Below are positions 4,533-33,094 of a stretch of 35,521 nt of DNA, in pieces (the first letter of the stretch is position 1; each line of letters opens with the position of its first letter). Source of the stretch: an uncultured Verrucomicrobiales bacterium (GTDB lineage: Bacteria > Verrucomicrobiota > Verrucomicrobiia > Verrucomicrobiales > Akkermansiaceae); NCBI GenBank assembly GCA_913060685.1, contig CAJXVQ010000006.1, forward strand, positions 1-35,521, read 5' to 3'. Both the position numbers and the translations under genes were made by a program. The notes under the pieces are model-generated. The model was given only the letters and a program-made list of their open reading frames with translations. It had not been told where the DNA came from and ran no database searches.

Positions 4533-7187
<2,655 letters not shown>

Positions 7188-7286
7188 GCCTGCGCAGCCC
7201 GCCACCGAAAACCAAAAAAACACGCCGCTTGATTTAGCACGATTCATGCTTGGCATTTCTCCCCCTCTTTGTTGAATAAGGCTAGT

Positions 7287-10200: not shown

Positions 10201-12839
10201 CCAACGTGAATTTGATCGATCGTCCGGGAGATGTCGGCACCCCGTCCGCGCCTAACTCGCGTGCCGAGGTAAACATCGGGCCGACCTATTCGGGGATGAA
10301 GCACTCGCCGGCAGTGCCCTCGGCGGGCGAACCCACCACGGTTTCGGTCGTGGCAAACGACCCGGACGGCATTTCCAGCCTGACATTGTTCTACTCGGTC
10401 AACGGTGGGGCATTTCAAACGGTCGCGATGGGTGGCGGCGCGAGTGGATTGTATCGCGGAGAGGTTCCCGGGCAGTCATCCGGCGCGCGCGTGCAGTTCT
10501 ACCTGACGGGTGCCGACTCATTCGGAGCCACGCAGACATTTCCGCAAGCGGGTCCGGACTCGCGTGCGATGTATCAAGTCAACGACGGTCTGGCGGCCAC
10601 CAACGGCTGGCAAAATTTTCGCATCATCATGACTGCTGCGGACTCCAGCTTCCAACACCAAGCGATCGAGGTGATGAGCAACGACCGTCTCGGCGCCACG
10701 ATCATCGACCGTGAGGGGGACATCTACTACGGCTGCGGCGTGCGATTGAAGAGTAGTCAGCGTGGGCGCGCCAACCTCAACCGGGTCGGTTACAGCGTGC
10801 GCTTCCCATCGGACGGGCTCTACCGCGGCGCACTTGACTCGGTGGCGATCGATCGTTCCGAGAGCCAAAGGCCGGGGCAGCGGGAATTGCTCTTCGACAT
10901 CATGATCTCCAACTCCGGCGGCGTGATCAGCCGCTACTACGACTTCGTCAAAGTGCTCGCCCCGAACTCATCGTTAACTGGCGGAGGACTGTTGCAGATG
11001 GCGCGCTACGGTGACGTCTTCCTCGATTCGCAGTTTGAAGACGGCGGTGATGGTCAGCTCTACGAGTATGAACTGATCTACTACCCTACCAGCGAGGACG
11101 CCAACGGCTTCAAGCGGCCACAACCCGACAACGTGACCGGCGCGCGTGTCTCCAACCTCGGCGATGATCAGGAACTCTATCGCTGGTTCTTCCTCAACAA
11201 GAACAATCGCGAGGCCGACCATTTCGCGCCGATCATGGCCTACAATAAACACTTCAGCAAATCGGGAGACTCCTTCGACGCCGGACTCGAGGATATCGTT
11301 GATGTCGACAGTTGGTTCCGCGGTATGGCCTACGCCGTCCTCAGCGGGGCGGGAGACAACGCCGGATCCGGCAGCCAGCACAACGGGATGTACTACGCGC
11401 GCCCCGACGACCGCGTGATGTTCCTCCCACACGACATGGACTTTGGGGCTGCCGGGGGAAACCCCACCGCATCGATCTTCGCCAACAGCGAATGCAACAA
11501 ACTGGCGAGCGTTCCCACACGCAGGCGCATCTACTTCGGCATCCTCCACGACATTGTCACCACGACGTGGAACAGCGCCTACATGTCAGACTTCACCTCG
11601 CACCTGGCATCGCTGGACCCAAGTCAGAACTGGGCTGGCAAGCTCAACTCCTTTGATCAACGCCGCAACTACGTGCTCACCCAGATCAATAACTCCATCG
11701 CGCCCATCGATTTTTCGATTACCACGTCCTCGCCGCTGATGGTCGCATCGAGCACGGCAACGATCTCTGGCGAAGGGTGGGTAGACGTTCGGGAGATCCG
11801 CCTGACAGGCGGGGCTGATCCGCTGGCGGTGGAATGGACGGACGGCAATTCCTGGACAGTGGACATCCCGGTGGCGCCCGGCTCACACACCTACACGATC
11901 GAGGCGTATGATTTCTCCGGGGAGCTCATCGACACCGATACGATCACGGTCGATAACACCGGCACGGTCGAACCAGCCTCTGCCTTGAATCTCGCCGTCT
12001 CCGAGTTGATGTACCATCCATCCGACCCGACGGCGGCAGAGATGGATGCTGGATTCACCGATGCGGATCTGTTCGAATTCATCGAGTTGACCAACATCGG
12101 GACACTGGACATCGACCTGACAGGCGTGAGCTTTACCGCAGGCATCAATTACGATCTCCCGGCGGCGACGATTCCCGCCGGAGGGCAGGTCGTGCTTGCC
12201 CGCAACCGTGCCGCCTTCCTGTCACGCCATCCAGGGGCGAGCACATTCCTGCTCCCGGGCGAATACGGGACCGGCGACACGAACAAGCTCGCCAATGGCG
12301 GCGAACAGGTTGTCATTGAAGATGCGCTGGGAAGCGATATCCGTCGCTTCACCTACGGCGACCGACTCCCTTGGCCAAATGCCTCTGACGGTGTCGGACC
12401 CAGTCTGGTGCTGATCGCGCCCGATACGAATCCTGACCACACCCTCCCGGAAAATTGGAGGCCCAGCACGACTTCCGGGGGTAACCCGGGATCTTCAGAC
12501 GCCAGGGCCTTCGTTGGCGATCCGAATGCTGATCTCGACAACAACGGTGTCCCCGACCTCGTCGACCACGCATTGACTGGCGATGGCCTGCCGATCCTTA
12601 GCTTCAGTGGTACGACAGTCGGTCTCGAGTATGATCGTGACCTGGCTGCAGATGACGTGATCGTCGAAATTCAAGTCTCAACTGACTTGTCAACTTGGAC
12701 CGATGGCTCCGGGCTGTTCTCGGAACTGGAGCCGATCTATCTCGGCGCGGGGGGGCAGCGAATGCGTTATGAAGCCCAGAGAACGGCGCTGCCAGCAGGG
12801 CGCTTTTTCATCAGGCTTCAGGTGACGCTGACCGAGTAG
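7287..12839 (+). CDS. Giant secreted lamin-tail / jelly-roll / CotH-kinase-like protein
   Basis: A 1850-residue exported multidomain protein. Residues 1-26 are a signal peptide ending near NHPVSAS. Domains in order: lamin-tail domain (LTD) about 30-155 (GEWIELFNQ); jelly-roll-like module about 186-363 (ADIWRYKD); LTD-like piece about 367-480 (FWVELINTG); first strand of another LTD near 490 (IVISEIAYSPPG); a second jelly-roll-like module about 519-690 (GDIWRYND); the rest of that LTD about 698-820 (QWVEIANRG); a carbohydrate-binding-like beta sandwich about 840-970; an Ig-like domain about 990-1095; a CotH-like kinase region about 1105-1470 (ELYRWFFLNKNN, FLPHDMDFGA); an Ig-like segment; a further LTD about 1565-1720 (FEFIELTNIG); an Asp/Asn-rich calcium-type loop (DPNADLDNNGVPD); and a C-terminal beta domain. 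CotH proteins phosphorylate partner proteins in spores; in such secreted forms the role is unproven. I use ATG 7287 rather than TTG 7269 because the signal peptide starts there. Confidence 0.85.
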   Translation: MPLPNLPLVFALVLCFLGLANHPVSASPDGVVVFNEVQYNPAGSDESGEWIELFNQMGIITDISGWRIDGIGYTFPNGTLVNPGSYVVVAKTPGAGEFGPFTGSIDNGGERLRLYNQSDRLMDELDFGDDARWPAAADGSGATLAKRKPYTASGRTDRWTYSEQLGGTRASANFPSTDGPPPPSTVGLIALADIWRYKDTPADPGADWAANVHPVGGDWKSGAGGIGFESGTTISLGTVLNHPNSNSPYVFTYHYEREFDLSTAQLAGLQSLKLRHGFDDGAVVYLNGTEVLRVNMPAGVIDAGTLALGGLEIDNLSADTTLPTGALLSGSNRISIEVHQEGLGSSDTVFGVELDVEIAGVDPGAGPMLSLNELPPANEASFWVELINTGPADIELAGIIISAGADPLREHQLTAGQLAPGALLLIDEATLGFRPADGEKLFLFDAAGTAVLDARQVTDSLLGRAEDRNGAWLYPSTATPGLPNVFVFNDDIVISEIAYSPPGLGGSPGVPPTFEITPLVAMGDIWRYNDADANLSADWSTASHPAGGDWKSGTGPIGAENGLLPVPLATMLSGYRSSTVTYYFETDFTVSAEVFNTAESLEITHQIDDGAAFYINGVRVGEFNLSSGALNPETLASPSVGNAVIDSLEVPISSLMSGVNRLSVEVHQSSTGSSDMVFGVGLAARVQTSPGIPALPFRNSDNQWVEIANRGASTINLGGWDFDNGISFDFPAGTILASGEHACVARDSALFTAAFPGARLLGEFSGSLSRTSEYVLLRDANRNPVNEVRYFDGGRWPGAADGGGSTLELRDLNADNRDAGAWAASDESGRTAWKTYTYRETATSSRGPDNQWREFNMGLLSDGEMLIDDISVIENPDGSAVQKLSDTTFNNAAAWKLVGNHRHGEIIDDPDSPGNKVLRIVATGATEHMHNQIFTKLSSAISNGTEYEISFRARWISGSRQLHTRLYFNRCANVNLIDRPGDVGTPSAPNSRAEVNIGPTYSGMKHSPAVPSAGEPTTVSVVANDPDGISSLTLFYSVNGGAFQTVAMGGGASGLYRGEVPGQSSGARVQFYLTGADSFGATQTFPQAGPDSRAMYQVNDGLAATNGWQNFRIIMTAADSSFQHQAIEVMSNDRLGATIIDREGDIYYGCGVRLKSSQRGRANLNRVGYSVRFPSDGLYRGALDSVAIDRSESQRPGQRELLFDIMISNSGGVISRYYDFVKVLAPNSSLTGGGLLQMARYGDVFLDSQFEDGGDGQLYEYELIYYPTSEDANGFKRPQPDNVTGARVSNLGDDQELYRWFFLNKNNREADHFAPIMAYNKHFSKSGDSFDAGLEDIVDVDSWFRGMAYAVLSGAGDNAGSGSQHNGMYYARPDDRVMFLPHDMDFGAAGGNPTASIFANSECNKLASVPTRRRIYFGILHDIVTTTWNSAYMSDFTSHLASLDPSQNWAGKLNSFDQRRNYVLTQINNSIAPIDFSITTSSPLMVASSTATISGEGWVDVREIRLTGGADPLAVEWTDGNSWTVDIPVAPGSHTYTIEAYDFSGELIDTDTITVDNTGTVEPASALNLAVSELMYHPSDPTAAEMDAGFTDADLFEFIELTNIGTLDIDLTGVSFTAGINYDLPAATIPAGGQVVLARNRAAFLSRHPGASTFLLPGEYGTGDTNKLANGGEQVVIEDALGSDIRRFTYGDRLPWPNASDGVGPSLVLIAPDTNPDHTLPENWRPSTTSGGNPGSSDARAFVGDPNADLDNNGVPDLVDHALTGDGLPILSFSGTTVGLEYDRDLAADDVIVEIQVSTDLSTWTDGSGLFSELEPIYLGAGGQRMRYEAQRTALPAGRFFIRLQVTLTE
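7842..8376 (+). repeat. First copy of an internal jelly-roll-like module
   Basis: This encodes about residues 186-363 of the large secreted protein. Landmarks shared with the second copy are DIWRY, ADW, HP.GGDWKSG.G.IG.E near the start and SIEVHQ..LGSSDTVFGV near the end. The pattern (edge strand, insertion loop, VYLNG-type hairpin, EVHQ strand) resembles modules used for glycan binding, but that function is inference. Confidence 0.7.
8835..9342 (+). repeat. Second copy of the internal jelly-roll-like module
   Basis: This encodes about residues 517-685 of the same protein and aligns with the first copy: GDIWRYND, SADW, HPAGGDWKSGTGPIGAE, FYINGVRVGEF, NRLSVEVHQSSTGSSDMVFG. The nucleotide sequences have diverged, so the duplication is old. 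It sits inside a lamin-tail domain, between that domain's first strand (ISEIAYSPPG) and its next one (WVEIANRG). Confidence 0.7.
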
Positions 12840-15746: not shown

Positions 15747-17948
15747 TTAGAATTTCGCCTCAAATCCGATAAACGCCGTACGTCCGATATTGGCACGTGG
15801 TCCGCGGGCAAGGCGTGAGACAATGGCTTGCTCGTCGAACAGGTTGCTCACACCTGCAAGAAGAGTGACGTTTTCATTCACATCATAGGTTCCGGTGAAA
15901 TCAAAGAGGAGGAGGTCATCGATCTTGCCGGCTCGCGAACCGGCCCCGGCGGTGTCGTCGAGGGGTGAATCAACATTCTGGGCGGTGCCAAAGGTCTCGC
16001 TCACAAAGGTGGCATCGAGATTGAGACTCCAAGCTCCTTGGGCCAAACCGATACCAGCGGCAAGCTGCCACTCGGGGACGTAAGGAATCTCAGCACCATT
16101 CGTGGCTCCGGCATAGATGTTGTCGCCTCCTCCACTGTCGATGGCGGAGGTCAAGGTGGCGTCGGTCCAAGTCGCAGTGATATACATCGGGATGGATAGG
16201 TCACTCCCGGTGTCTGCACAGGGATCGTAGGAAAGCTGTGCTTCAATACCATAGACTTCGGCCTCACCGACATTCTGCGCATTTGGATCTCCAAGACCGG
16301 CATCGGTTGCGATCAAGTTATCGAAGTCGGTGAAGAAGGCCGTAACGTCATAGCTCAGCTTGGGACTCTGATAGCGGTAACCAAGTTCGAAGCCGGTGGA
16401 TTCTTCCTCTTCAACTCCACGGGAAGCCGAGCGAGGCCCGGGAATGGAAACGCCACGAAAAACTCCCCCATAGACAACCGAGGAGTTGTCGAACTCATAG
16501 TTGAAGCCGATCCCCGGGGTGACGAGGTCGAAGGTATTGGAGCCGGATTGGTTGCTATTGTAATCCACGTAGGATTGATCGGCATGCTCGTAGCGAATGC
16601 CCGGGGTCAGGGTGAGGTTCCCGATTGAGAGTTCATCCTGCAACCAGAGCGCGAGGGCATCGGTCTCCTGGGAACGATTGCCCTGGCTTCCCGGAGCGCC
16701 TACGATCCGGTCAGTGATGTTTCCAGTGTCTCCAAGAACAATGTTCTCATCGTTTTGAAAACGGCGAACATCGTCACGGTGGTAACGGGCTCCAAATTTT
16801 AGAGTATGATCCACTTGCCCGGTTATGAATTCGTAGTCACCGGTCATCTGGTAACCGTAGGCGGTGTAGTCGCGGTTGTTATTGCGAAACACGAGAGTGC
16901 CGGGTCCGCGCATTTGCAGGATCTCAAGACCATCACCGGTCGCGAGCGCTTCGCGAACCGAGTTTGCGCCACCGATAATGTCATCCACCTTCGCCCAGTT
17001 TCGGGTGAACTCGTTATAGTATCCGGCGAACTCAAGGCTGACGCTGTCGGTTGGCTCGATTCGGTATTTCAGATAAGTGCGGTGCTGCTCCGAAGCCATG
17101 TTGTCGAAACGTGATCCGGCGTATCGGCGGTCGGGATTCCGACGAACATCTTCTTCAGTGAGCCCGATGTAGGTCTCATCGGAATCAAAATTCGAGTAGC
17201 CATATTTAAACTCCACGCGCTGACGAAGTGGGGTATTGGGTTCCCAGAAAAGTTTCACCATGGGTTCGGTCAGGGTGAAGCCGGTATCATCCGAACTGCC
17301 GAGACCACCGCCACTGTCGATCTTTCGGAAACCATCACTGGAGTGCTGGAAGAGCTCGAAGAGAAAGCCCACCTTACCATTGGCGGTGTCTACCGTATTG
17401 CCGTAGTAGCTGTGGGAAAGGAACGTGTTGTAGGTGCCATAGGTATTCCGGGTGTAGAAAGTCTCCTCAGCCGGAATTTCGGTGGAGAGGAAGTTGATCA
17501 CTCCCCCGGTCGTCTGGGGTCCATATTGGATTTGACTGGAGCCCTTGAGCACTTCGATGCCTGACATGCGTCCGGCACGGGGAAAATAATACGCGGCAGG
17601 AGCCGAGTAGGGTGCCGGCGCGGTGAGGATGCCATCCTCCATGATGGTTACTTTTTCCGAACGGGTACCATCACCTCCACGGATGGAAATGTTGGGGAAA
17701 TTACCAAAACCGTCCTCTTCCCGGACATAAACCCCGGGGACTTTACGGAGGACCTTCTGGATGTTGGTGATGCCTTTCTTTTGAAATTCCTCCGCTTCAA
17801 TGTAGGCACCCGAACCGGTCAGTCCAAGGAGGTCCTCGGTGCTACCGATGACGTTGACGGTTTCGAGGGTTTCGATGGCGTCCTGAGCGGAAAGCATCCC
17901 CATCGCAAGGGCGGCGGTCAGGGTGAAAATACCAGTGTTCTTAGTCAT
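15747..17948 (-). CDS. TonB-dependent outer-membrane receptor, FecA/siderophore-like
   Basis: A 733-residue outer-membrane beta-barrel that imports a ligand, probably a ferric complex, using energy from TonB. A signal peptide (LTAALAMGMLSAQ) is followed directly by a TonB-box-like stretch TLETVNVIGS. The plug domain spans about residues 40-165: IQKVLRKVPGVYVREEDG, GNFPNISIRGGDGTRSEKV, TIMEDGILTAPAPYSAPAAY and IEVLKGSSQIQYGPQTTGG. The remainder is a 22-strand barrel of alternating residues that ends GFEAKF with a terminal Phe, as required for barrel assembly. The plug motifs are those I associate with iron(III) dicitrate-type receptors, but it lacks the extra N-terminal signalling domain of FecA, so it should not signal to a sigma factor through that route. 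tonB lies 101 bases upstream on the same strand. The ligand is inferred, not seen. Confidence 0.93.
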   Translation of the reverse strand: MTKNTGIFTLTAALAMGMLSAQDAIETLETVNVIGSTEDLLGLTGSGAYIEAEEFQKKGITNIQKVLRKVPGVYVREEDGFGNFPNISIRGGDGTRSEKVTIMEDGILTAPAPYSAPAAYYFPRAGRMSGIEVLKGSSQIQYGPQTTGGVINFLSTEIPAEETFYTRNTYGTYNTFLSHSYYGNTVDTANGKVGFLFELFQHSSDGFRKIDSGGGLGSSDDTGFTLTEPMVKLFWEPNTPLRQRVEFKYGYSNFDSDETYIGLTEEDVRRNPDRRYAGSRFDNMASEQHRTYLKYRIEPTDSVSLEFAGYYNEFTRNWAKVDDIIGGANSVREALATGDGLEILQMRGPGTLVFRNNNRDYTAYGYQMTGDYEFITGQVDHTLKFGARYHRDDVRRFQNDENIVLGDTGNITDRIVGAPGSQGNRSQETDALALWLQDELSIGNLTLTPGIRYEHADQSYVDYNSNQSGSNTFDLVTPGIGFNYEFDNSSVVYGGVFRGVSIPGPRSASRGVEEEESTGFELGYRYQSPKLSYDVTAFFTDFDNLIATDAGLGDPNAQNVGEAEVYGIEAQLSYDPCADTGSDLSIPMYITATWTDATLTSAIDSGGGDNIYAGATNGAEIPYVPEWQLAAGIGLAQGAWSLNLDATFVSETFGTAQNVDSPLDDTAGAGSRAGKIDDLLLFDFTGTYDVNENVTLLAGVSNLFDEQAIVSRLARGPRANIGRTAFIGFEAKF

Positions 17949-17964
17949 TTTGGTGTTTATTGAG

Positions 17965-17977
17965 ATTGCGTCGCAAT
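17965..17977. promoter_or_regulatory. 13-bp palindrome before the receptor gene
   Basis: ATTGCG-T-CGCAAT is a perfect inverted repeat centred 23 bases upstream of the receptor start codon. An overlapping CGCAATTG (17972-17979) recurs just before tonB at 18894-18901. It may be an operator for a dimeric regulator; it does not look like a standard Fur box. Confidence 0.4.
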
Positions 17978-18049
17978 TGCAGGTAATATTTAAAAAGGTC
18001 TCGTTATGTCTTAATTTCCCGGATTCCCTGGGATCGTGGAGTGGCCGAT

Positions 18050-18883
18050 CTAGCTGTTGAGCTGAAAGTTGAAGGGAATGGCCTTTTTGACACTCACGAC
18101 TTGGCCGAGCGCATTCTTAGCCGGGCGAAAACGGTAACGGCGGGCCGCACTGATGGCGGATTGATCAAGAGATGAATGCCCGCTGCTCTGAGAAATCTGG
18201 CAACTGGAAACCTTTCCCGAGGCTCCCACCGTGACTGTCACGACCACGCGGCCCTGCAAACCCTTCCGTCTGGCGCTTTTGGGGTAATTCGGAGTTCCCC
18301 GGGAAACGACGGATGCCTGCTGAACGATTTTTTGAGCAAGGCCCGCGCGCCTCTGTTGTTCGCGTTTTGCAAGCTCGGCCTGGCTTGGACCGCTGCGATT
18401 TACCGGGGTGGTATTCTTCGCAACCGCCGTTGCTTTCCGGGTCTTTGTCGGTTCGCTTGGCTCGGCCTTTTTGGCAAACGGATTTTCGAAGTCCAACTCC
18501 TCAAGCACGAGCAGGTCCGGAGTGGTTTCCAGCGTCAACGGAACTTTGACGAATTTGGGCGGGTCACTCGAAGGAGCGGGAGCTTGAACCACAGTGAAAT
18601 CAGGGCTGGAAGGGGTCGTGATGAGCCGTTGTGGCGCGAAATCAACCTGCGGTTTCACCTTCTTCACCGGTTCGACGTAGTGCATCGTGAGGTTTTCAGG
18701 ATGAACGGTGGTCTCTGTGAAAACCTGATGGGCCCGGATGATCAAGGCCAACGCACCGCACATTGCACCCGTTCCCAGCACTGCCACCACGAGGGAAGCA
18801 GAGAGTCGTTTTCCATATCCGGAGAGTCGGGTCTGGAGAGTGGGTGCGTTTTGCATGCCACTTGATACGCCTTGATTCGCCAT
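18050..18883 (-). CDS. tonB: TonB-type energy transducer
   Basis: A 277-residue inner-membrane protein that links the proton motive force to outer-membrane receptors. A cytoplasmic N-terminus of about 25 residues precedes one transmembrane helix (LSASLVVAVLGTGAMCGALA). A Pro/Lys/Glu-rich periplasmic linker follows (VEPVKKVKPQV, FAKKAEPSEPTKTRKA). The C-terminal TonB domain covers about the last 85 residues: TPNYPKSARRKGLQGRVVVT, VGASGKVSSCQISQSSGH and SAISAARRYRFRPAKN. The open frame reaches a TTG at 18898, but I chose ATG 18883, which has AGAAGA just upstream. No exbB or exbD is present. It is followed on the same strand by the receptor gene, 101 bases on, so this TonB is probably dedicated to that receptor. 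Confidence 0.92.
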   Translation of the reverse strand: MANQGVSSGMQNAPTLQTRLSGYGKRLSASLVVAVLGTGAMCGALALIIRAHQVFTETTVHPENLTMHYVEPVKKVKPQVDFAPQRLITTPSSPDFTVVQAPAPSSDPPKFVKVPLTLETTPDLLVLEELDFENPFAKKAEPSEPTKTRKATAVAKNTTPVNRSGPSQAELAKREQQRRAGLAQKIVQQASVVSRGTPNYPKSARRKGLQGRVVVTVTVGASGKVSSCQISQSSGHSSLDQSAISAARRYRFRPAKNALGQVVSVKKAIPFNFQLNS

Positions 18884-18943
18884 TCTTCTGTCGCGCAATT
18901 GTAATCTATTAGCGCTCAGTTGTCTTTGGCTGTCAAATGACGC

Positions 18944-18978: not shown

Positions 18979-19371
18979 TCATCGACTCCCGATCTGATTC
19001 CCGCACCGCTTGTGGATGAGCTTTTTCAGCCGCAGAGGGGGAATTCCGTAATAACCCTTTATTTCGGTCGAAAAGTGAGAGTAGTGTCGGAAACCAAGGT
19101 TTTTAGCGATATCGTGGAGGTCTTCGCCCTCCTGAATCAATCTTCGTGCGAGAACCGCACGATATTGACGAAAGAAGTTTTTAGGTTTCATTCCAACCAC
19201 CCGGTCAAGCGCGACCTCGAAATCACGGACTTTCATCCCCAGACGCTCGGCCACACTATTCACCATAAACCCCTCATCATGAGCAATCGCAAGGATATCC
19301 CGGCCATCCCGGTCGACGACGTGATCCCCTCTTCGGTCAAACTGGCCATCGGAAAATGCTTCGCTTATCAT
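18979..19371 (-). CDS. Short AraC-family transcriptional regulator (DNA-binding domain only)
   Basis: A 130-residue protein that is essentially the double helix-turn-helix DNA-binding domain of AraC/XylS regulators. The first helix-turn-helix is about residues 35-60 (FMVNSVAERLGMKVRDFEVA) and the second about 80-110 (LIQEGEDLHDIAKNLGFRHY, then SHFSTEIKGYYGIPPLRLKK). The family signature (I..+...GF...S.F...FK...G.+P...+) is clear, though the usual final FK...G..P reads IKGYYGIPP. There is no ligand-binding domain, so the input signal is unknown; it may act with a partner. The start ATG is at 19371; no Shine-Dalgarno sequence is visible. It lies between tonB (same strand) and the divergent signalling operon starting at 19504, and could regulate either. 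Direct repeats start six bases upstream of its start codon. Confidence 0.88.
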   Translation of the reverse strand: MISEAFSDGQFDRRGDHVVDRDGRDILAIAHDEGFMVNSVAERLGMKVRDFEVALDRVVGMKPKNFFRQYRAVLARRLIQEGEDLHDIAKNLGFRHYSHFSTEIKGYYGIPPLRLKKLIHKRCGNQIGSR

Positions 19372-19376
19372 ACGTA

Positions 19377-19409
19377 TTTAGTCTAGAAATGGTGGAGATT
19401 TAGCCTAGA
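19377..19409. promoter_or_regulatory. Two 11-bp direct repeats, 22 bp apart, in a divergent promoter
   Basis: TTTAGTCTAGA (19377-19387) and TTTAGCCTAGA (19399-19409) differ at one base. Their starts are exactly 22 bases apart, about two DNA turns, so a protein could contact both on one face. They lie between the AraC-type gene (start 19371, minus) and the methyltransferase gene (start 19504, plus). AraC-family proteins often bind direct repeats, so autoregulation and control of the operon are reasonable inferences. Confidence 0.6.
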
Positions 19410-19503
19410 GGGGGATAAGCAATATCAGGACGCTAACTCACTGTATGCGTATTGCAATTCGTTTATTCGCTCTTAAGCTCTCATCCTCAGGTTTCTCTCC
19501 CGA

Positions 19504-20928
19504 ATGTCCGCAAACTTATCCAATTTGAATACCACCGTCGCGTGTAAAAACAGCCAAGGTCAGCAGATTGCGGCGAATGTTTTGCGCCTCAGAAGATATT
19601 CCGCCACGTTTGAGGTCTACAACCCATTCAGTCTCCTGCAACTCTCGGAGGTGATGCACGGATTTCAGATTCGTCTCGATGATCGCGTCGTCTACTCCGG
19701 CGATGCCATTGTCTCGAATTTGGTCAACACCGGCATTCTTCTGATTTGTGAAGTCACCCTGAGTGATGCTTGGCTGGATATCGACTTCCTTTCAGATCGG
19801 GAGGGCACCCTCCCGCTTGACCGCCAGTTCTCCTCCTTCCTGAACGAGTGGAAAATCGCGAACCAAGTCGATCCGGAGTTCAAGATGATCACCGCGGATT
19901 TACAAAGTCTCCTCGTGGGCTTGCAGCGCTGGATGGAACATGCCGATCTCGGACTGCGCACATCGACCACCGGCGATCTGGAGGAATTGGAGGAAAAAAC
20001 CATCAGAGGTCTGGAAGAACAGCTTGCTGAGCAGGTCCACGAAGCCATGGGGGACTTCGAGGTTTCCGCCCGGAACATCCCAAAGGACAATCAAGCCGCT
20101 CACAAATTCTACGTTCGCCGCCAGATTCATCCGCTGGTGCTGTGCTCCCCTTTCGCTTACCGGACCTTCTACAAGCCACTGGGATACGCCGGTGACTACG
20201 AAATGGTCAACATGATGCTGCGCTCCCCCTACGAGGGCGCTTCGCTCTTTGCCAAGTCAATCAACTGCGCCTTTCTTAAGACCGCACCCGTAGAGGCGCA
20301 TCGCAATCGCATCACCTACCTGAAGACAATCCTTGACGAGGCCGCCGGGAAAAGCGGAAACCGCAAAGCACGGATCCTCAACCTCGGCTGTGGTCCTGCT
20401 CACGAAGTCCGGTCCTTTATGCGCTCTTCTGAATTAAGCAGCCGCTGTGAATTCACCCTCCTCGATTTCAATGACGAAACCCTTCGCTTCACCGGAGAAT
20501 CTCTCGAAGAATTAAAAAACCAATACGGTCGGGACACCGAAATCCACCTCATCAAGCGCTCGGTCCACCAGCTCCTCAAACAAGCCAACACCGGCGATGC
20601 CGACTTGGACTGGGACGGCTACGATTTAGTCTACTGCGCCGGCTTATTCGACTACCTCTCGCAGAGGGTTTGCCGCCGCCTGACCGATGTCTTTTTCAAA
20701 CTCGTCCGCCCCGGAGGCAAAGTCGTAGTCACCAACGTTTCATCGACCAACCCCAGCATCGGCTGGATGGAATACCTCCTCGAATGGAATCTCGTCTACC
20801 GCAACGATGAAGAAATGAGAGATCTTGTTCCGAAAACCGTCCGCCCCGAGGCCGCTTCCGTCCTAGCTGATAAAACCGGAGTGAACCTCTTTCTCGAAGT
20901 TGAGAAACCCAGCCTGATCCGAGTGTGA
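19504..20928 (+). CDS. PhcB-like SAM-dependent methyltransferase (putative fatty-acid methyl ester signal synthase)
   Basis: A 474-residue soluble protein. Residues about 10-100 form a PilZ-like beta domain (VLRLRRYSATFEVYNPFSLL), though the full c-di-GMP motif RxxxR...(D/N)xSxxG is not present. A helical middle segment (about 120-200) leads to HPLVLCSPFAYRTFYKPLGY and AGDYEMVNMM, then AHRNRITYL. I recall this GYAGD...AHRNR block from PhcB-type proteins. The methyltransferase fold starts at about 285: SAM motif I ILNLGCGPAHEV (about 291), an acidic end of strand 2 (TLLDFNDE, near 320), and YDLVYCAGLFDYL. In Ralstonia, PhcB makes 3-hydroxy fatty acid methyl esters used for quorum sensing. Its stop overlaps the next start in TGATG, so translation is coupled to the sensor kinase. 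The methyltransferase call is secure; the PhcB assignment rests on motifs and neighbours. Confidence 0.8.
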   Translation: MSANLSNLNTTVACKNSQGQQIAANVLRLRRYSATFEVYNPFSLLQLSEVMHGFQIRLDDRVVYSGDAIVSNLVNTGILLICEVTLSDAWLDIDFLSDREGTLPLDRQFSSFLNEWKIANQVDPEFKMITADLQSLLVGLQRWMEHADLGLRTSTTGDLEELEEKTIRGLEEQLAEQVHEAMGDFEVSARNIPKDNQAAHKFYVRRQIHPLVLCSPFAYRTFYKPLGYAGDYEMVNMMLRSPYEGASLFAKSINCAFLKTAPVEAHRNRITYLKTILDEAAGKSGNRKARILNLGCGPAHEVRSFMRSSELSSRCEFTLLDFNDETLRFTGESLEELKNQYGRDTEIHLIKRSVHQLLKQANTGDADLDWDGYDLVYCAGLFDYLSQRVCRRLTDVFFKLVRPGGKVVVTNVSSTNPSIGWMEYLLEWNLVYRNDEEMRDLVPKTVRPEAASVLADKTGVNLFLEVEKPSLIRV

Positions 20929-23561
20929 TGCCGGAAAAATCAAACTTCCAAGGCCGGAACCTCTGGCAGAAATTTGAAGAAAACGAAGTTCGTATTCGTG
21001 CCGTCCACTTTCAGCGGGGCGTCTTTTTTGGAGGGGGCTTCATGGTCCTCGGCTCGTCTCTCGATTTCTTCGTCTATCCCCAACATCTGCTTCCGTTCTT
21101 TCTCGCCCGGGTCATCACCTTTGGCCTCCTCTTTCTCGCGCTCATCCCCCTTTCACTGAGCGATTCGCCGAAGATTATCAGACTCACGAGCCACTGGATG
21201 GTCTCTCTTCCCATGGTCGCGATCGGCTGGATGATCTACTATACCAACAATGGCGAATCACCCTACTACGCAGGACTCAATCTCGTCCTGGTCGGTGCGA
21301 GCCTCATCCTCCGATGGCGTTTTTCGGACAGTGTCATCAATGCCTGTATCTGCCTCCTCGGCTACATTGCAATGATTAGCTTTCTCCCGGGTAAGCCATC
21401 GGTTTTGTTCAACAACGCCTACTTCATCGGAGTGACGGCAGTCTTCGCATGCGCCGGCACCTACTTCTACAACCAACTCCGTTTTCGTGAGTTCGTCTTG
21501 CGGGATGAATTGGACACCAACCAAAAAGCCCTCGAAGAAAACAACGCCAAACTCAAGGCACTCGATGAAGCCAAAACCCGCTTCTTCGCCAACATCAGCC
21601 ACGAACTGCGGACACCACTCACCCTCATCCTGGGACCGGTGGAAAACCTCAAAAACATGCCCTCCCTACAGGCGGACCCCAAAGTCCGTGACACCCTGGA
21701 AACTCTCTCCGAGAACGGTTTCAGATTGCTCCGCCTCATTAACGATCTCCTTGATCTCGTCCGCCTCGACACCGGTGACGTTCCGCTTCGCCCTGAGAAC
21801 ATCAACCTCCCGGAATTCCTTGGTCAACTCGGCACCAGCCTCCGCCCCATGGCCGAGACCCAGCAGATCTCGCTTCAAGTGGAAAGCAATCTCCCCAAGC
21901 GCCCGATCCTCTTCTACGATCGGAATCAGCTCGAGAAAATTATCCTGAATCTCAGTATCAATGCCCTGAAATTCACTCCCGCCGGAGGCAAGGTGACCCT
22001 TGGATTGTCCGAGGAGGAGGAGCATTTCACCCTCACCGTCAGCGACACCGGCAAGGGCATGAACGAGGCAGAACTGGCCCGAATTTTCGAGCGATTTTGG
22101 CAAGCCGATGGCTCATCGAAAAGGAAGGCTCGCGGAACCGGAATCGGTCTCGCCCTCGTCAAGAGCCTCACTGAAAATCTCGATGGAGAAATCGAAGTGG
22201 AGTCCGAACCCGGAGAAGGAACGACTTTCACTCTACGCTTCCCCATCCGGATCGCCGAGAAGGAAGAATCCGAGGAAATCGAAATCCTCCCTGCCGAGGA
22301 GGCTGATGAATTCGACAAGCTTCACGACAAGGCCCGCCTGGCCGCCGCCAGTCCCAGACAACACCAAACCGCACAGGCCTCCGGACACAATACCGCCACC
22401 CGGTCGACCAGCGAACGAGCCACCGTCCTGGTCGTCGATGACGAATCAGGCATGCGAAGTTACATCGCCTCCCAGCTCGAGGATTATCACCTCCTGCAAG
22501 CCTCCGATGGCAGACAAGGCTGGGAACTCGCAAAACAACACATTCCCGATCTCATCGTCCTCGATCTCATGATGCCGGAAATGGATGGCATGGAAGTCTG
22601 CCGGCTCCTCCGGGAGCATCCTGCCACCGCCCGGATTCCCATCGTCCTCGTCACCGCTCATGCCGGGGATGCGCCACGGCTTGAAGCCATCCGCGCCGGC
22701 GTCAACGACTTCCTCACCAAGCCCTTCTCATCGGTAGAGCTCAAGGCCCGCATTAGCAACCTGCTCCTCACCGCAACCTTCGAGCGCGATCTCTCGATCA
22801 GCAACAAGGATCTCTCCCAGGCCCTCGAGCAACTCCAGGAAAACGAAGAGGAACTGGTCCGTGCCGAAAAACTCTCCTCCCTCGGCCGCATGAGCGCCGG
22901 GATTATCCACGAGATCAATAATCCCCTCAACTATGCGAAGACCTCCGTCCACATTCTCAAAACTTACTCCAGTCTCATCCCCGCGGATGAGAAGGAGGAC
23001 TATGATGATACTTTGGTCGACCTCGAGGATGGAGTCGAACGCGTCATCAACATCGTCACCGACCTCCGCGCCTTCACCAGAGGAGATGAAACCACCCGCC
23101 ATGTCTTGTCTCTTCGTAAGGTCGTCGAGACCACCTGCCGCCTCTTGGCCAGTGACCTCAGCGGCATCAATTTCACCTCTGAAATTCCCGAGGAAATCGA
23201 GCTGGAAGGAAACGACAACCAACTTTGCCAAGCCTTTGTCAACCTGATCCAAAACGCCTTACGGGCCACCGCCCATCGCGATGATCCCGTCATCAAGCTC
23301 ACTGCCCAGGCATCAGAAGGCGGAAGCATCCAAGTCCAGCTGGAAGACAACGGCGTCGGAATTCCTCCCGAAAACCAAGGCAAGATCTTTGACCCCTTCT
23401 TCACCACTCGCGACGTCGGGGATGGCATGGGCCTGGGCCTCAGCCTCACTCTGAAAATCATCGAGGGACACCGCGGACGGATCCATGTCGAAAGCGAGCC
23501 CGGCCACGGGGCCACCTTTACCATCTACTTTCCTCCACCCCATAATTCCCACGATTCGTGA
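20928..23561 (+). CDS. Membrane hybrid histidine kinase with two kinase modules (PhcS-PhcR-like fusion)
   Basis: An 877-residue sensor. Six transmembrane helices occupy about residues 29-185 with no large periplasmic domain, which suits a hydrophobic signal. First kinase: H-box FFANISHELRTPLT with H225, N-box LNLSINALKFT near 340, G-boxes DTGKGM and GTGIGLALVKSL near 404. Receiver: VVDDESGMRS, phosphoacceptor D546 in DLIVLDLMMPEMDG, lysine in FLTKPFS near 595. Second kinase: H-box GRMSAGIIHEINNPLNYAKT with H661, N-box FVNLIQNALRAT near 770, and DNGVGIPPEN through GMGLGLSLTLKIIEG. In Ralstonia the sensor PhcS and the receiver-kinase PhcR are separate; here the two units are in one chain in that order. 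The start ATG 20928 overlaps the previous stop. His225 to Asp546 to the second kinase is the likely phosphate route (inference). Confidence 0.9.
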   Translation: MPEKSNFQGRNLWQKFEENEVRIRAVHFQRGVFFGGGFMVLGSSLDFFVYPQHLLPFFLARVITFGLLFLALIPLSLSDSPKIIRLTSHWMVSLPMVAIGWMIYYTNNGESPYYAGLNLVLVGASLILRWRFSDSVINACICLLGYIAMISFLPGKPSVLFNNAYFIGVTAVFACAGTYFYNQLRFREFVLRDELDTNQKALEENNAKLKALDEAKTRFFANISHELRTPLTLILGPVENLKNMPSLQADPKVRDTLETLSENGFRLLRLINDLLDLVRLDTGDVPLRPENINLPEFLGQLGTSLRPMAETQQISLQVESNLPKRPILFYDRNQLEKIILNLSINALKFTPAGGKVTLGLSEEEEHFTLTVSDTGKGMNEAELARIFERFWQADGSSKRKARGTGIGLALVKSLTENLDGEIEVESEPGEGTTFTLRFPIRIAEKEESEEIEILPAEEADEFDKLHDKARLAAASPRQHQTAQASGHNTATRSTSERATVLVVDDESGMRSYIASQLEDYHLLQASDGRQGWELAKQHIPDLIVLDLMMPEMDGMEVCRLLREHPATARIPIVLVTAHAGDAPRLEAIRAGVNDFLTKPFSSVELKARISNLLLTATFERDLSISNKDLSQALEQLQENEEELVRAEKLSSLGRMSAGIIHEINNPLNYAKTSVHILKTYSSLIPADEKEDYDDTLVDLEDGVERVINIVTDLRAFTRGDETTRHVLSLRKVVETTCRLLASDLSGINFTSEIPEEIELEGNDNQLCQAFVNLIQNALRATAHRDDPVIKLTAQASEGGSIQVQLEDNGVGIPPENQGKIFDPFFTTRDVGDGMGLGLSLTLKIIEGHRGRIHVESEPGHGATFTIYFPPPHNSHDS

Positions 23562-23645
23562 ATCGATGGCAGACTCATCGAGAATGAAACCTCATAAAAA
23601 GTTTCTCTATCATTTCGAAATCATTACCTTCCTCCCAAAGACAGC

Positions 23646-24839
23646 ATGAGCACCCTGCCTCCACAAGACACCACCAACACACTTCCGACCATCCTCTTTG
23701 TGGATGACGAGGAGAAAACGAGGAAGCACTTCAAGCGCCTATTCCAACGACAGTTTAACATCCTCCTCGCTGAAGACGGAATTGAAGCCTTCAAGGTTTT
23801 TCAAGAATCCGTCACCGAAATCGGAGTGATCGTCACCGACCAACGGATGCCCAATGAAACCGGAACCGAGTTTCTCCAAAAAGCCGCGCTGCTCAAACCA
23901 GGGGTCATCCGCATCCTTTCCACTGCTTACGCAGAAGTCGATGCCGCCATTGATTCGGTGAACAAAGGAGGCGTCTATCGCTACATCACCAAGCCCTGGG
24001 AAGTCCCCGACCTGGAAGTCACCCTCACCCGCGCGGTCGAACTTTACCAACTTCAAAGCGAGCGGGACGAGCTCGTCCGGCAGAAATTGACCAGCCTTCA
24101 AAATCTCGCCGCCACCGAGCGGATTCACTCCCTGGCGGCCCTCGCCGTCTTCCAAAACACGGGCCTTCGTCACTGCTCCCGCGCCCTTCAGGCACTCGTG
24201 CAGCTCGCCGACCGACCGGGAGCGCCCGGCGCACTTCCAGCTCAAGGCAATCCAAACTGGGCCGAGATTTACCGTCACCACCGCCATTTTCTGGAAGTCG
24301 CTCACGCTCTCCTTCCCACCGGACTTGCAAACTCCGCTCCCCTGGATGATTCCAGTCTCGTTCCGGCGGCAGGCATCGTCCAAACAGTCTGCCAGACGGA
24401 CAACCGATTCCAGTGGACCGAGACGGAGCACAAGGGCATCGCCTGGCCCGGCCCCGCCGACCTCGTGACGCCGATCACCCAGCGTCTGTTTGAAGGATTG
24501 GGAGCGATTCTTTCACAAGCCGACCTCGTCGGCGCCAGAGAAGCCGAAAACGGCGTTGAACTCTCCATCTCCACCCTCGCCTTCCAACATGGCCTGCAGC
24601 CCCTGCTCTCACCAAGCTTCCCGGATGGACCTGAAAAAAACCGGAGTCTGCAGGTGACCTCCGCCTTCCTCGAGTGGGCCCATCACGGGGGATCGATGCA
24701 AATCCTGCCGGACCCCTCCAGCCGCACCATCACCCTGCGACTCGGCCTCGCTTCTCCAGGACCGATCCACGATCCATGGGAAACGTTGGCCGCCGACCTC
24801 GTTGCCAACGATCTCTTTTGGCAACGTCACCTCGACTAA
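23646..24839 (+). CDS. Response regulator with unassigned C-terminal domain (PhcQ-like)
   Basis: A 397-residue cytoplasmic protein. The receiver domain is at about residues 12-130: ILFVDDEEKTRKHF (acidic pocket), D65 as phosphoacceptor in IVTDQRMPNETGTEFL, LSTAYAEVDAA (switch Thr/Ser position), and RYITKPWEVPDLE with the conserved Lys. A coiled helix follows (LYQLQSERDELVRQKLTSLQ), then about 240 residues with no DNA-binding motif, GGDEF or HD-GYP. The last part (FLEWAHHGGSMQILPDPSSR and TITLRLGLASPG) vaguely recalls the end of a histidine-kinase ATPase domain lacking its N and G boxes. PhcQ of Ralstonia is also a receiver protein without a clear DNA-binding output and sits in the same place in its operon. 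The 84-base gap from the kinase gene has no terminator. Probably phosphorylated by that kinase. Confidence 0.75.
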   Translation: MSTLPPQDTTNTLPTILFVDDEEKTRKHFKRLFQRQFNILLAEDGIEAFKVFQESVTEIGVIVTDQRMPNETGTEFLQKAALLKPGVIRILSTAYAEVDAAIDSVNKGGVYRYITKPWEVPDLEVTLTRAVELYQLQSERDELVRQKLTSLQNLAATERIHSLAALAVFQNTGLRHCSRALQALVQLADRPGAPGALPAQGNPNWAEIYRHHRHFLEVAHALLPTGLANSAPLDDSSLVPAAGIVQTVCQTDNRFQWTETEHKGIAWPGPADLVTPITQRLFEGLGAILSQADLVGAREAENGVELSISTLAFQHGLQPLLSPSFPDGPEKNRSLQVTSAFLEWAHHGGSMQILPDPSSRTITLRLGLASPGPIHDPWETLAADLVANDLFWQRHLD

Positions 24840-29303: not shown

Positions 29304-30650
29304 TTACCTCGAGAGCCCGCCGAGTGGCGTTCTTGTCTCACCAAACTGACCCACGGGAACACCCATTCGCTGCAGCAGGGCGAGATGAAGTTGTGACATC
29401 GATGTCGCACGGCTCGGGGCGAGGTAGTGGCCGGTCTTGATCGTCTCGGCACCACCGCCGGCGAGGAGGATGGGGAGGTTCTTGGCCTCGTGGGCGTGGC
29501 CATCAGCGAGGCTCGAACCATAAACGATCATTGAACTTTCCAGAGCACTGGTGCCATCGGCGTTCTTGAGCTCCTTCAGACGCCCGAGAAAATAGGCAAG
29601 CTGCGAATGGTGCCAGCGGGTGACGGAATTATACATCGCCCCTTTCGCGGTGCTGCTATCCCATTTGGTTTTTCCATCGTCGTCTTCGGTGCGACCGCTC
29701 GCATCCTTCCAATGGGAGAGTGCGTGCCAGGTTCCTTTGACACCGGGCACGAAGTCGAAATAACGATTACTCTGTCCGTGATCGAGCATGAAGGTCGAGA
29801 CGCGGGTCGCCCCGGACCAAAAGGAAAGCGCCATCAACTCGAGCATCTGTCGGACATACTCTTGGTGATCGGCGGGGATGCCGGCGGCGGGACGTGTCAG
29901 GGTATCGGTGAGGGCCTTGTCGTCCGCAATGCGCTGCGTCTGCTCCTCCGCGAAATCGAGGCGCTTCTCAACCGCGCGCACGGAATCTAAATACTCGTCA
30001 ATTTTGCGACTGTCCGCTGCGCTGGCACGACGTTTCAGCGACTTTGATTGTTCGAGGACCAAGTCGAGGACACTGCGATCGACGAAACCCTCGCTTGCCC
30101 GCCGGAACAGTTTGTCAAAGACCGCTCGCGGCATCGTTTCACGTGCGGCGGGAACATCACGCTTGGTCCAGGAAAGGCAATTTCTCGGCAAGCTGCCGGA
30201 GAAACTCCCTTCCCCGGCGGTGCTCAGCTCCAGGGAGGGCAAAGGCGTCGATTCACTCAGATGACGGGCCACGATCTGATCAACAGAAGGCGCTCCCACG
30301 TCGTTTTTGCGGTGATCATACGAGCCGCCGGTGAGCCAGGTCGCGGTGCCGGCAGCGTGTCCGTTGCCACGTGGCGTCCACAAATTTTTGGTCACCACGA
30401 TGTCGGATTTGAAGGCTTCCAATGGCTCCATCCAAGGGTTCAATTTCTGCAACTCGCCGGCGGGGCCGACTCTCTCCGGCTCCCATGCTCCCTCGGCGGA
30501 ACCATTTGGAAAGTAGAGGTAGGCAAGGCGCGGCGGCACTCCTGAATTCGATGCATTGGTGATGGGGGCACCGAAACTCTCCAGAGAAGGAAGCGCGAGG
30601 CAGGCTCCCATTCCTCTGATAAAAGCGCGACGATTGGGATTACTCTTCAT
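29304..30650 (-). CDS. Tat-exported DUF1552 family protein
   Basis: A 448-residue exported protein with a twin-arginine type signal at its N-terminus (NRRAFIRGMGACLALPSLES). The body matches DUF1552, related in layout to DUF1501 proteins of the alkaline-phosphatase/sulfatase type: RLAYLYFPNGSAEGAWEPE, TATWLTGGSYDHRKNDVGAP, SVDQIVARHLSESTPLPSLE, VEKRLDFAEEQ, GATRVSTFMLDHGQSNRYF, MIVYGSSLADGHAHEAKNLP and ILLAGGGAETIKTGHYL. The biochemical function is not established. It nearly always sits next to DUF1592-type cytochrome proteins, as here: its start overlaps the end of that gene by 11 bases, which indicates translational coupling and joint action outside the cytoplasm. It is the last gene of the sigma-factor operon. 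Confidence 0.93.
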   Translation of the reverse strand: MKSNPNRRAFIRGMGACLALPSLESFGAPITNASNSGVPPRLAYLYFPNGSAEGAWEPERVGPAGELQKLNPWMEPLEAFKSDIVVTKNLWTPRGNGHAAGTATWLTGGSYDHRKNDVGAPSVDQIVARHLSESTPLPSLELSTAGEGSFSGSLPRNCLSWTKRDVPAARETMPRAVFDKLFRRASEGFVDRSVLDLVLEQSKSLKRRASAADSRKIDEYLDSVRAVEKRLDFAEEQTQRIADDKALTDTLTRPAAGIPADHQEYVRQMLELMALSFWSGATRVSTFMLDHGQSNRYFDFVPGVKGTWHALSHWKDASGRTEDDDGKTKWDSSTAKGAMYNSVTRWHHSQLAYFLGRLKELKNADGTSALESSMIVYGSSLADGHAHEAKNLPILLAGGGAETIKTGHYLAPSRATSMSQLHLALLQRMGVPVGQFGETRTPLGGLSR

Positions 30651-33069
30651 TGGCAGATGCGGGGGGAATTCGTTTCATGGTAAACGGAGAGCTGTCAGTG
30701 ATCGCGAGCACCAAATCACCGAAACGATAGCCGCCCGGTTTGAGCTTCGCCGCAATTTCTTTGACCGTGCCCTCATCGTAAAATTCGAGTTGGCGGCCAA
30801 GCGCATAGGAAAGCATTTTACGGATCGCCTGTGAACCGAGATCGTCAATTCGTTCATCGATCAGGGCGAGTTTGAGCCCGGCAGGTCCGCGGAATTTCGC
30901 CCCACTCGGCAAGGTGCCACGGTCGTCAACACCGGCACGCCACTGACCGAACTCGGCGTAACTCTCGAGCGCGAAGCCCAGGGGATCGATCTGCGAGTGG
31001 CAACCCGCACAGTTTGCCGCGTCGCGATGCGCTTCGAGCTTTTTTCGCAAGGTCGTCGCAGCCCGACGACCACGGCCCTCAACCTCGATCTCCGGAACAT
31101 CCGGCGGTGGGGGTGGGGGCGGTGTCCCCAAAAGAGTCTCGAGGATCCACTTGCCCCGCACCACCGGGCTGGTGCGGTCCGGGAATGAAGTCGTGGCGAG
31201 GACACTGGCCTGCCCAAAGACGCCCCCGCGTTTCGACGTCTCAACTGCGACCTTACGCATTGCGTCTCCCTCGACACCATCGATGCGGTAAAAGCGCGCC
31301 AGTTCGCCATTGAGAAAGGTGTAGTCGGCATCGATCAATCGCGAGACCGGAGCATTGTCACTCACCAGCGAGTGGAAAAAATAGGCCGTCTCAGCACGCA
31401 TTCCCGCCATGAGCGTCTCGGTGCACCAAGGGTTGTCGATCGGGTCCTTGCGGATCCGCGGGCCGACGTCATCCGTGCTGAGCCATTCCGCGGCAAAGAT
31501 CTCTCCGAGCGCAAGACTACGCGGATCGGCAAGCATTCGCTTCACTTGAGCCTGGCGCTTCACTGAATCCGAGAGATCACCGGCGGCGGCCGCATCGAGA
31601 AGCTCTTCGTCTGGTGTCGAGGCCCAGAGAAAATACGACAAGCGCGCGGCAAGATCGAAACCGGTCACGAGCTGATCTTCGGCAACATCGGCCGATTCCT
31701 CGACGCGCAGGAGAAAATTCGGCGAGATGAGAATCGTTTTAAACGCATTGGCCAAGGCAACTGGCTGGGAAACTTTGTTTGCGATTGAAGTATCGTAGCG
31801 CTGCGTCACCTCCTGAATCTCTCCCCTGGTAGGCGGTCGCCGGTAAGCGCGACGCATGAATTTCGCAATCGTCTCCGGGGCTTTATCGAGCGTTCCAGCC
31901 AACTTCATCCAGGCGTCACCGTCAGCTCGAACTTCGTCAATCACTCCTTCCGCTGCCGTGAAATAGCGATCGAGATGAGTCGTTTGAAGGAACAAGGTAT
32001 TGGCACTGTTGGAGAAGCCACTGGTGCCGCTGAAGTCCATCGGGAAGTCGTCCGCCGGTCTCAGGTCAAGCCCGACGAGATCGCGAATCGTACGGTTGTA
32101 TTCCTCCCGCGTGAGACGCCTTGCCTGGACATAGCCGGGGTTGCGGACCTTGCTGTAGTCGAAACCGCCGACCTCCGTCGCGAGCCAAGCGCGCAATTTC
32201 AACCGATCGGAATCTGCTGGCTGGGATTTCTTCCTGGGCGGCATATCGCCCATCTTCACGCGCTCCGCAACATTTTCCCACAGCAGCCTGTTTCGCACCA
32301 AAGGCGTTTCCGTAAGTGCGGATTCCAAGTCGATGTCGCCCTTGGCACTCGCGCGATCGTGACAGTCGAAACAGTAGGTCTCGAGCGTCTCCCGAATATC
32401 TTTATCAAAGTTAAAAGTGATGCCGTGAAGCTCGTCTTTCTCACCGGCCAGACCTTCCGGTGCGGGCGTGTAAACCGGTCCGTCCTCCAGATCTTCTTCA
32501 TCCTCCATTTCCCTCTCTTCGATATCCTCATCAATGAGCTCGAAATCCTGCAAGGTTTCCTTGAAGCGCTCCATGAGCACCTCCTCAGGATTCTCACGAC
32601 GCCACTCCAATTCCTCCTCCATCTCGTCCGTTTCCTCCCGCAGACGTTCGATCTCCATACGGTCCGATTCGTTGTTCAGGGCGATCTGCTTTTTCAACAA
32701 GCCAAGCAACGTGGCCTCACCTTCGTCCCCACCGATCTCTTCTTCCTTGAAACGCCACACAAACACTTCGATCTCAACCTCGACCTCTTCCAGCCCGAGG
32801 AGAACTTTTGCCCATTCCTCACCATGCTCTTCCTTCTCTTCGAAAAACATCTCACGTAATTCAACGGCCCGCTCGCGAGCTTCTTCGAGTTCCTCACCAC
32901 CCTCACGCCCATGTAATTCAATCGCCTTCAGGACCGCCGGAGCACGACGCTTGAGAAACGCCATCGTTTCCTCATCAATCGGTTCCGCACAGGCAGAGTG
33001 TCCCCACAGAGAGGCCACGATCGCAACCGCGATCATGATGCCATACTTGGGGATTCTCTGAGTCATCAT
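30640..33069 (-). CDS. Coiled-coil + PSCyt/DUF1587-1595-1592-1588-1585 cytochrome-like protein
   Basis: An 809-residue exported protein. A signal peptide (IMIAVAIVASLWGHSACA) is followed by an acidic coiled coil at about residues 25-200 (ELEEARERAVELREMFFEEK). A first heme site CFDCH (C233, C236, H237) lies in a PSCyt-type domain ending MGDMPPRKK. Then DUF1587 (RRLTREEYNRTIRDLVGLDL), DUF1595 (MRRAYRRPPTRGEIQEV), DUF1592 (ARLSYFLWASTPDEELLDAA), DUF1588 (YTFLNGELARFYRIDG; LLGTPPPPPPPDVPE) with a second heme site CAGCH (C687, C690, H691), and DUF1585 (AIRKMLSYALGRQLEFYDEG). The domain set is typical of Planctomycetes and Verrucomicrobia; two CXXCH motifs suggest electron transfer coupled to an unknown reaction. 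The N-terminal coiled coil is not usual for the family. I use ATG 33069, where the signal peptide begins, not the open frame to 33159. Confidence 0.93.
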   Translation of the reverse strand: MMTQRIPKYGIMIAVAIVASLWGHSACAEPIDEETMAFLKRRAPAVLKAIELHGREGGEELEEARERAVELREMFFEEKEEHGEEWAKVLLGLEEVEVEIEVFVWRFKEEEIGGDEGEATLLGLLKKQIALNNESDRMEIERLREETDEMEEELEWRRENPEEVLMERFKETLQDFELIDEDIEEREMEDEEDLEDGPVYTPAPEGLAGEKDELHGITFNFDKDIRETLETYCFDCHDRASAKGDIDLESALTETPLVRNRLLWENVAERVKMGDMPPRKKSQPADSDRLKLRAWLATEVGGFDYSKVRNPGYVQARRLTREEYNRTIRDLVGLDLRPADDFPMDFSGTSGFSNSANTLFLQTTHLDRYFTAAEGVIDEVRADGDAWMKLAGTLDKAPETIAKFMRRAYRRPPTRGEIQEVTQRYDTSIANKVSQPVALANAFKTILISPNFLLRVEESADVAEDQLVTGFDLAARLSYFLWASTPDEELLDAAAAGDLSDSVKRQAQVKRMLADPRSLALGEIFAAEWLSTDDVGPRIRKDPIDNPWCTETLMAGMRAETAYFFHSLVSDNAPVSRLIDADYTFLNGELARFYRIDGVEGDAMRKVAVETSKRGGVFGQASVLATTSFPDRTSPVVRGKWILETLLGTPPPPPPPDVPEIEVEGRGRRAATTLRKKLEAHRDAANCAGCHSQIDPLGFALESYAEFGQWRAGVDDRGTLPSGAKFRGPAGLKLALIDERIDDLGSQAIRKMLSYALGRQLEFYDEGTVKEIAAKLKPGGYRFGDLVLAITDSSPFTMKRIPPASANEE

Positions 33070-33094
33070 TTGCTTGGTTGTGGTCGTGAGATGA

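Follow-up and report, generated by a model that had tools for sequence, protein, structure and literature searches.

We conclude that the 35,521-nucleotide stretch of DNA analysed here (the window; contig C6 in a draft genome of 6.93 Mb) carries a three-gene operon that, judged from sequence, is more aptly described as a variant of Phc-type quorum-sensing systems, with a predicted product. The operon probably constitutes a self-made lipophilic-signal system of this type, while the narrower proposal that its signal is the predicted product, a 3-hydroxy fatty acid methyl ester, is evenly balanced. The reading as a self-made lipid signal is based on homology of the methyltransferase (MTase), sensor, kinase and receiver to an operon of Paraburkholderia graminis together with conserved gene order, on MTase-sensor co-occurrence, linkage across phyla and correlated divergence (r = 0.85), and on a six-transmembrane (six-TM) fold like that of ImcA and cyclase anchors combined with linkage to FadL. 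As PhcR has no gene of its own here and the product is only predicted, the operon is filed as a Phc variant and not as a proven member.

The operon begins with a gene for a PhcB-like SAM-dependent MTase (19504..20928, + strand, 474 aa), identified by its open reading frame, Pfam, homology to P. graminis and a structure model. Its TGA stop overlaps the ATG of the following gene as TGATG, at GTGTGATG. That second gene encodes a fused sensor hybrid kinase (20925..23561, + strand, 878 aa; GTG start at 20925 or ATG start at 20928), recognised by Pfam, homology, catalytic motifs and a model, and the third encodes a PhcQ-like receiver protein (23646..24839, + strand, 397 aa), recognised by Pfam and P. 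graminis homology. A check of open reading frames verified that the MTase, sensor and receiver genes are real, lie on a single strand at these positions and include the TGATG overlap described in the earlier note. That note listed a membrane kinase and a "receiver plus second kinase" as separate genes; the two form a single fused 878-aa reading frame.

Divergent from the operon lies a gene for a small AraC-type HTH protein (18979..19371, - strand, 130 aa), a recurrent neighbour of such operons. The intergenic region between them (19372..19503, unstranded) holds a 12-nt direct repeat in the divergent promoter region, ATTTAGYCTAGA, with copies 22 nt apart (19376 and 19398; span 19376-19409). The repeat is absent from relatives, and its interpretation as a conserved AraC site 5' of the operon was rejected. 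Upstream of the AraC-type gene are a TonB-dependent receptor and a TonB-type gene (15747-18898, - strand), and the receptor is also retained in the nearest relative, locus L154. Elsewhere, the window encodes a 1856-aa protein in which Lamin Tail Domains are combined with a CotH kinase-like region (7269-12839, + strand) and a DUF1552 protein adjoining a DUF1592/1588/1587/1585/1595 and cytochrome protein with PSD/PSCyt domains (29304-33159, - strand).

A plasmid operon of like order in P. graminis contains homologues of every protein of the window operon; it encodes an MTase of 468 aa, a sensor kinase of 445 aa, a receiver of 134 aa and a receiver protein of 344 aa. The plasmid search gave a single full-length MTase match, and PhcB of Ralstonia or Cupriavidus was not found among the viral contigs searched. 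The link to characterised Phc systems consists of gene order, protein size and the P. graminis operon, itself uncharacterised. Published lengths are 464-468 aa for PhcB, 368-374 aa for PhcR and 336-337 aa for PhcQ (PMC8578825). The window operon resembles the Phc operons of Ralstonia, Cupriavidus and Paraburkholderia in gene order and strand, in an MTase of ~470 aa as the first gene, in a six-TM sensor kinase with its phospho-histidine near residue 230, in a receiver-kinase module, and in a PhcQ-type receiver protein lacking a DNA-binding domain as the last gene. The first phospho-histidine of the fused sensor is His226, close to H230 of PhcS (PMC11960443). Unlike in Phc, however, sensor, kinase, receiver and second kinase are joined in one 878-aa protein. 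A separate PhcR gene is absent, its receiver and second kinase being fused to the sensor, and this fusion is the rule in Verrucomicrobiota; the P. graminis operon has only the 134-aa receiver at the PhcR place. The Verrucomicrobial MTase clade also lies far from the Proteobacterial one on the tree, relatives of the window operon neighbour FadL and small AraC-type genes, and no PhcA-type LysR output regulator is linked to the window operon. The Phc interpretation of the earlier note is supported by order, lengths, homology and the retention of the sensor with the MTase; with PhcS and PhcR fused, the MTases far apart and the product only predicted, "variant" describes the operon better than "the same system".

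The alpha-hydroxyketone systems Lqs (LqsA-LqsR-LqsS) and Cqs (CqsA-CqsS) offer a second comparison. They likewise combine membrane sensor kinases for lipophilic signals with linkage of synthase and sensor genes, but their synthase, LqsA or CqsA, is a PLP enzyme (PMC10653808; PMC4821796), in whose place the window operon has a SAM methyltransferase. No PLP-dependent synthase of the LqsA/CqsA type was found in the window operon or beside it.

The MTase comprises an all-beta N-terminal domain (residues 10-86), a helical middle (105-212) and a Rossmann MTase domain (261-467), and was modelled with a pLDDT of 87. Pfam identified a SAM methyltransferase domain, whereas over 46 family members it gave no PilZ and no other named N-terminal domain; the window protein had no NCBIfam match. 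It shares 37% identity with the P. graminis homologue along its whole length (467 aa, E 6e-106), and the latter keeps all 22 columns that are invariant in the 47-member family alignment. The window protein has A where the homologue has R22 in the alignment, and position 22 is the residue number mutated in PhcB (PMC6989110). A sequence-profile search of the PDB gave no close MTase relative, and the closest PDB folds include C- and O-methyltransferases with varied substrates. In the tree the window MTase falls among sequences of its own genus and of further Verrucomicrobiota, confirming the host phylum suggested earlier, and the branch leading to P. graminis is very long.

The MTase belongs to a broad superfamily, in which shorter members lacking the sensor also occur. 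Among these are free-standing homologues of the MTase core, 348 aa long, on Rhizobiales plasmids (L126, L142, L144), located beside EAL/GGDEF genes and without a sensor kinase. At L027 (841-1800 and 1939-3297) and L028, a 319-aa short relative lacking the N-terminal domain precedes a TM6 sensor kinase of its own, and the full operon is present in these genomes too; the pairing of a 319-aa short MTase with its own TM6 kinase is seen in genomes G200 and G191. At L118 (7941-9392) the MTase gene lies in two frames with an intact sensor alongside, representing either a pseudogene or an assembly error.

The fused sensor is ordered as a six-TM input (residues about 5-190; 20925..21554, + strand, defined by invariant residues and the model), kinase 1 (His226), a receiver (Asp547) and kinase 2 (His662). 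Pfam accordingly reports HisKA/HATPase twice around one Response_reg; the catalytic motifs are all present and the phosphotransfer residues intact. The AlphaFold2 model of the sensory domain contains six helices (pLDDT 95), and R62, S112, Y114 and Y115 (S112-x-Y114-Y115) are invariant in 44 sensor-domain sequences; the P. graminis sensor retains R62, S112 and Y115, with F in place of Y114. Identity to P. graminis is 27% in the TM domain (E 5e-11), 35% in the internal receiver and 31% in kinase 2, to which the P. graminis kinase is nearer than to kinase 1. The fused protein may have arisen when PhcS and PhcR were joined, or when a kinase-receiver unit was inserted into a protein resembling PhcS. 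Its sensory domain has as closest solved folds the diguanylate cyclase ImcA (TMq 0.66) and adenylyl cyclases including human AC9 (about 0.6), with weak E-values, and weak MASE8 similarity was seen in 22 of 44 sensor homologues at a permissive E-value, the window's own match being below cut-off. The likeness to ImcA and the class III adenylyl cyclases (MASE-type) is in the six-TM input fold, whereas the output here is a histidine kinase and theirs a cyclase. When the anchor of the Rv1625c cyclase was swapped for the quorum-sensing receptor of Vibrio harveyi, the cyclase was stimulated by CAI-1 (PMC4821796). At L162 (G314:C13:17000-30000, 6067-10496), a TM6-kinase-receiver-kinase gene is followed by two receiver genes with no MTase nearby, possibly a receiver-only ("eavesdropping") system.

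The PhcQ-like protein has an intact receiver (motif TDQRMP) and is 38% identical to the last P. graminis protein over 154 aa. The latter lacks R at the number of the literature's PhcQ R154. The earlier description of the window protein as having no DNA-binding output agrees with Pfam, which finds Response_reg only, but overlooks a C-terminal degenerate histidine-kinase region; in many relatives this tail is a recognisable, though degenerate, histidine kinase, and it is more decayed in the window. Ralstonia PhcQ binds and stabilises the transcription factor PhcA (PMC13320629), and since PhcQ works in this way the missing DNA-binding output is no obstacle to the assignment.

A homologue scan of 84,980 species genomes returned hundreds of relatives. 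Among the best 80 of these, which were kept, the order MTase, TM6-kinase-receiver-kinase, PhcQ-like protein was found in nearly all loci of adequate length, compared with 0 of 40 control windows drawn from two operon-carrying genomes; L052 and L018 are among the few with a shorter one-kinase sensor, as in P. graminis. Carriers include Haloferula sp. BvORR071 and Pelagicoccus sp. SDUM812002. A full-length MTase was present in 22 of 388 Verrucomicrobiota genomes, all 22 of which also encode the TM6 sensor, almost always adjacent, and only one genome of the 388 gave a strong match to the sensor without a full-length MTase (Fisher p about 5e-35, uncorrected for phylogeny and inflated by co-inheritance). 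MTase and sensor distances were correlated (r = 0.85). In a second, small phylum, to which the candidate FCPU426 genome belongs, 9 of 45 genomes encode the MTase, with the sensor adjoining in the loci checked, and the sensor is still alongside an MTase of 27% identity from the Acidobacteriota set. Neither Acidobacteriota (one close match in about 250 genomes) nor the phylum of a Binatia genome (one in about 200) was accepted as a regular carrier. Two locus labels were dropped: "Omnitrophota" for L055, where the phylum search gave Verrucomicrobiota genomes, and "Proteobacteria" for L093, whose phylum is that of the FCPU426 genome.

Clustering of the flanking genes revealed two widely recurrent families outside the operon, neither of which occurs in the 40 control windows. 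FadL/TodX (PF03349), an outer-membrane long-chain fatty-acid porin, was found in 50 of 93 loci (30 of the 47 fully flanked), and the 130-aa AraC-type HTH gene in 33 of 93, where it is either divergent and some 480-630 bp upstream, the arrangement seen in the window, or lies downstream of the gene for the PhcQ-like protein; the loci include close relatives, and so these counts do not represent independent events. FadL lies directly 3' of the PhcQ-like gene in three of the window's close relatives. It is absent beside the window operon, where, as in the nearest relative (87%), a GFO/IDH gene occupies its place; two FadL genes elsewhere in the window's genome are 26-28% identical to the linked FadL of the close relatives. 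In Sinorhizobium, long-chain AHLs are taken up via FadL (PMC9938287). The two neighbours speak for a signal that is a long-chain lipid and suggest that an output protein exists, with the AraC-type protein as a candidate output or operon regulator.

From these observations a signalling route can be proposed. With SAM, the MTase would methylate the carboxyl group of a fatty acid, most likely one with a 3-hydroxy group, and the hydrophobic methyl ester would leave the cell. FadL-type porins, linked in relatives and present as unlinked copies in the window's genome, may return the lipid across the outer membrane, and the six-helix domain would bind it in the inner membrane and govern kinase 1. Phosphate is predicted to flow to the built-in receiver, on to kinase 2 and from there to the PhcQ-like receiver, through domains whose catalytic residues are present. 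The PhcQ-like protein would then probably bind a transcription factor, like PhcQ with PhcA, and the divergent AraC-type protein appears to be the best candidate target.

Three other explanations bear on this reading. The operon could encode quorum sensing of the same architecture, Phc-like, that uses a different lipophilic methylated compound as its signal, such as a non-hydroxylated or branched fatty acid methyl ester or a dicarboxylic or polyketide ester. The mere 37% identity of the MTase to its Proteobacterial homologue on a very long branch, the varied substrates of the nearest C- and O-methyltransferase folds, and a FadL linkage that suits any long-chain lipid all leave room for it, but P. 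graminis keeps 22/22 family-invariant MTase positions and largely shares the invariant sensor motif. We consider such a signal possible though rather unlikely; it is a sub-case of the lipophilic-signal explanation, with which its confidence overlaps. A two-component system for lipid stress or membrane sensing, with an MTase that alters or detoxifies a lipid inside the cell and a sensor that reads the membrane or fatty-acid state, would be compatible with FadL as a fatty-acid uptake porin and with an operon that has no secretion gene and only a candidate transcription-factor target. The whole operon nevertheless matches the Phc order, and the pairing of MTase and sensor is constant even in the short MTase-sensor pairs, making this explanation improbable.

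Chance proximity of an unrelated MTase to an ordinary hybrid kinase might be entertained given that both families are common in bacteria, but the order is kept in nearly all adequate loci, co-occurrence is 22/22 and the control windows gave 0/40. Synteny conserved across phyla refutes such an adjacency, which we regard as practically negligible. A broader extension of the Phc-type, self-made lipid-signal reading is that an ancient, lineage-wide system of lipid-ester signalling with an architecture of its own (fused kinase-receiver-kinase sensor, a FadL porin dedicated to re-entry of the signal, AraC-type output) is common to Verrucomicrobiota and one or more candidate phyla, with the Betaproteobacterial Phc as a derived branch; we put this forward tentatively, as the less likely outcome.

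Automatic annotation pipelines may already label MTases of the window type "phcB", and the new part is therefore the system-level evidence. In a survey that took in Proteobacteria only, phc clusters were confined to Betaproteobacteria (PMC10653808). Our literature search returned no description of a Phc-type system in Verrucomicrobiota, in line with the earlier note, which knew of none. For an abundant and poorly understood phylum, the operon would represent a signalling system whose signal class, receptor, porin and regulator are all predicted. The prediction is directly testable in the operon carriers Haloferula sp. BvORR071 and Pelagicoccus sp. SDUM812002, and the Verrucomicrobial sensors would form a natural comparison set for the residues with which a six-helix receptor would read a fatty-acid ester.
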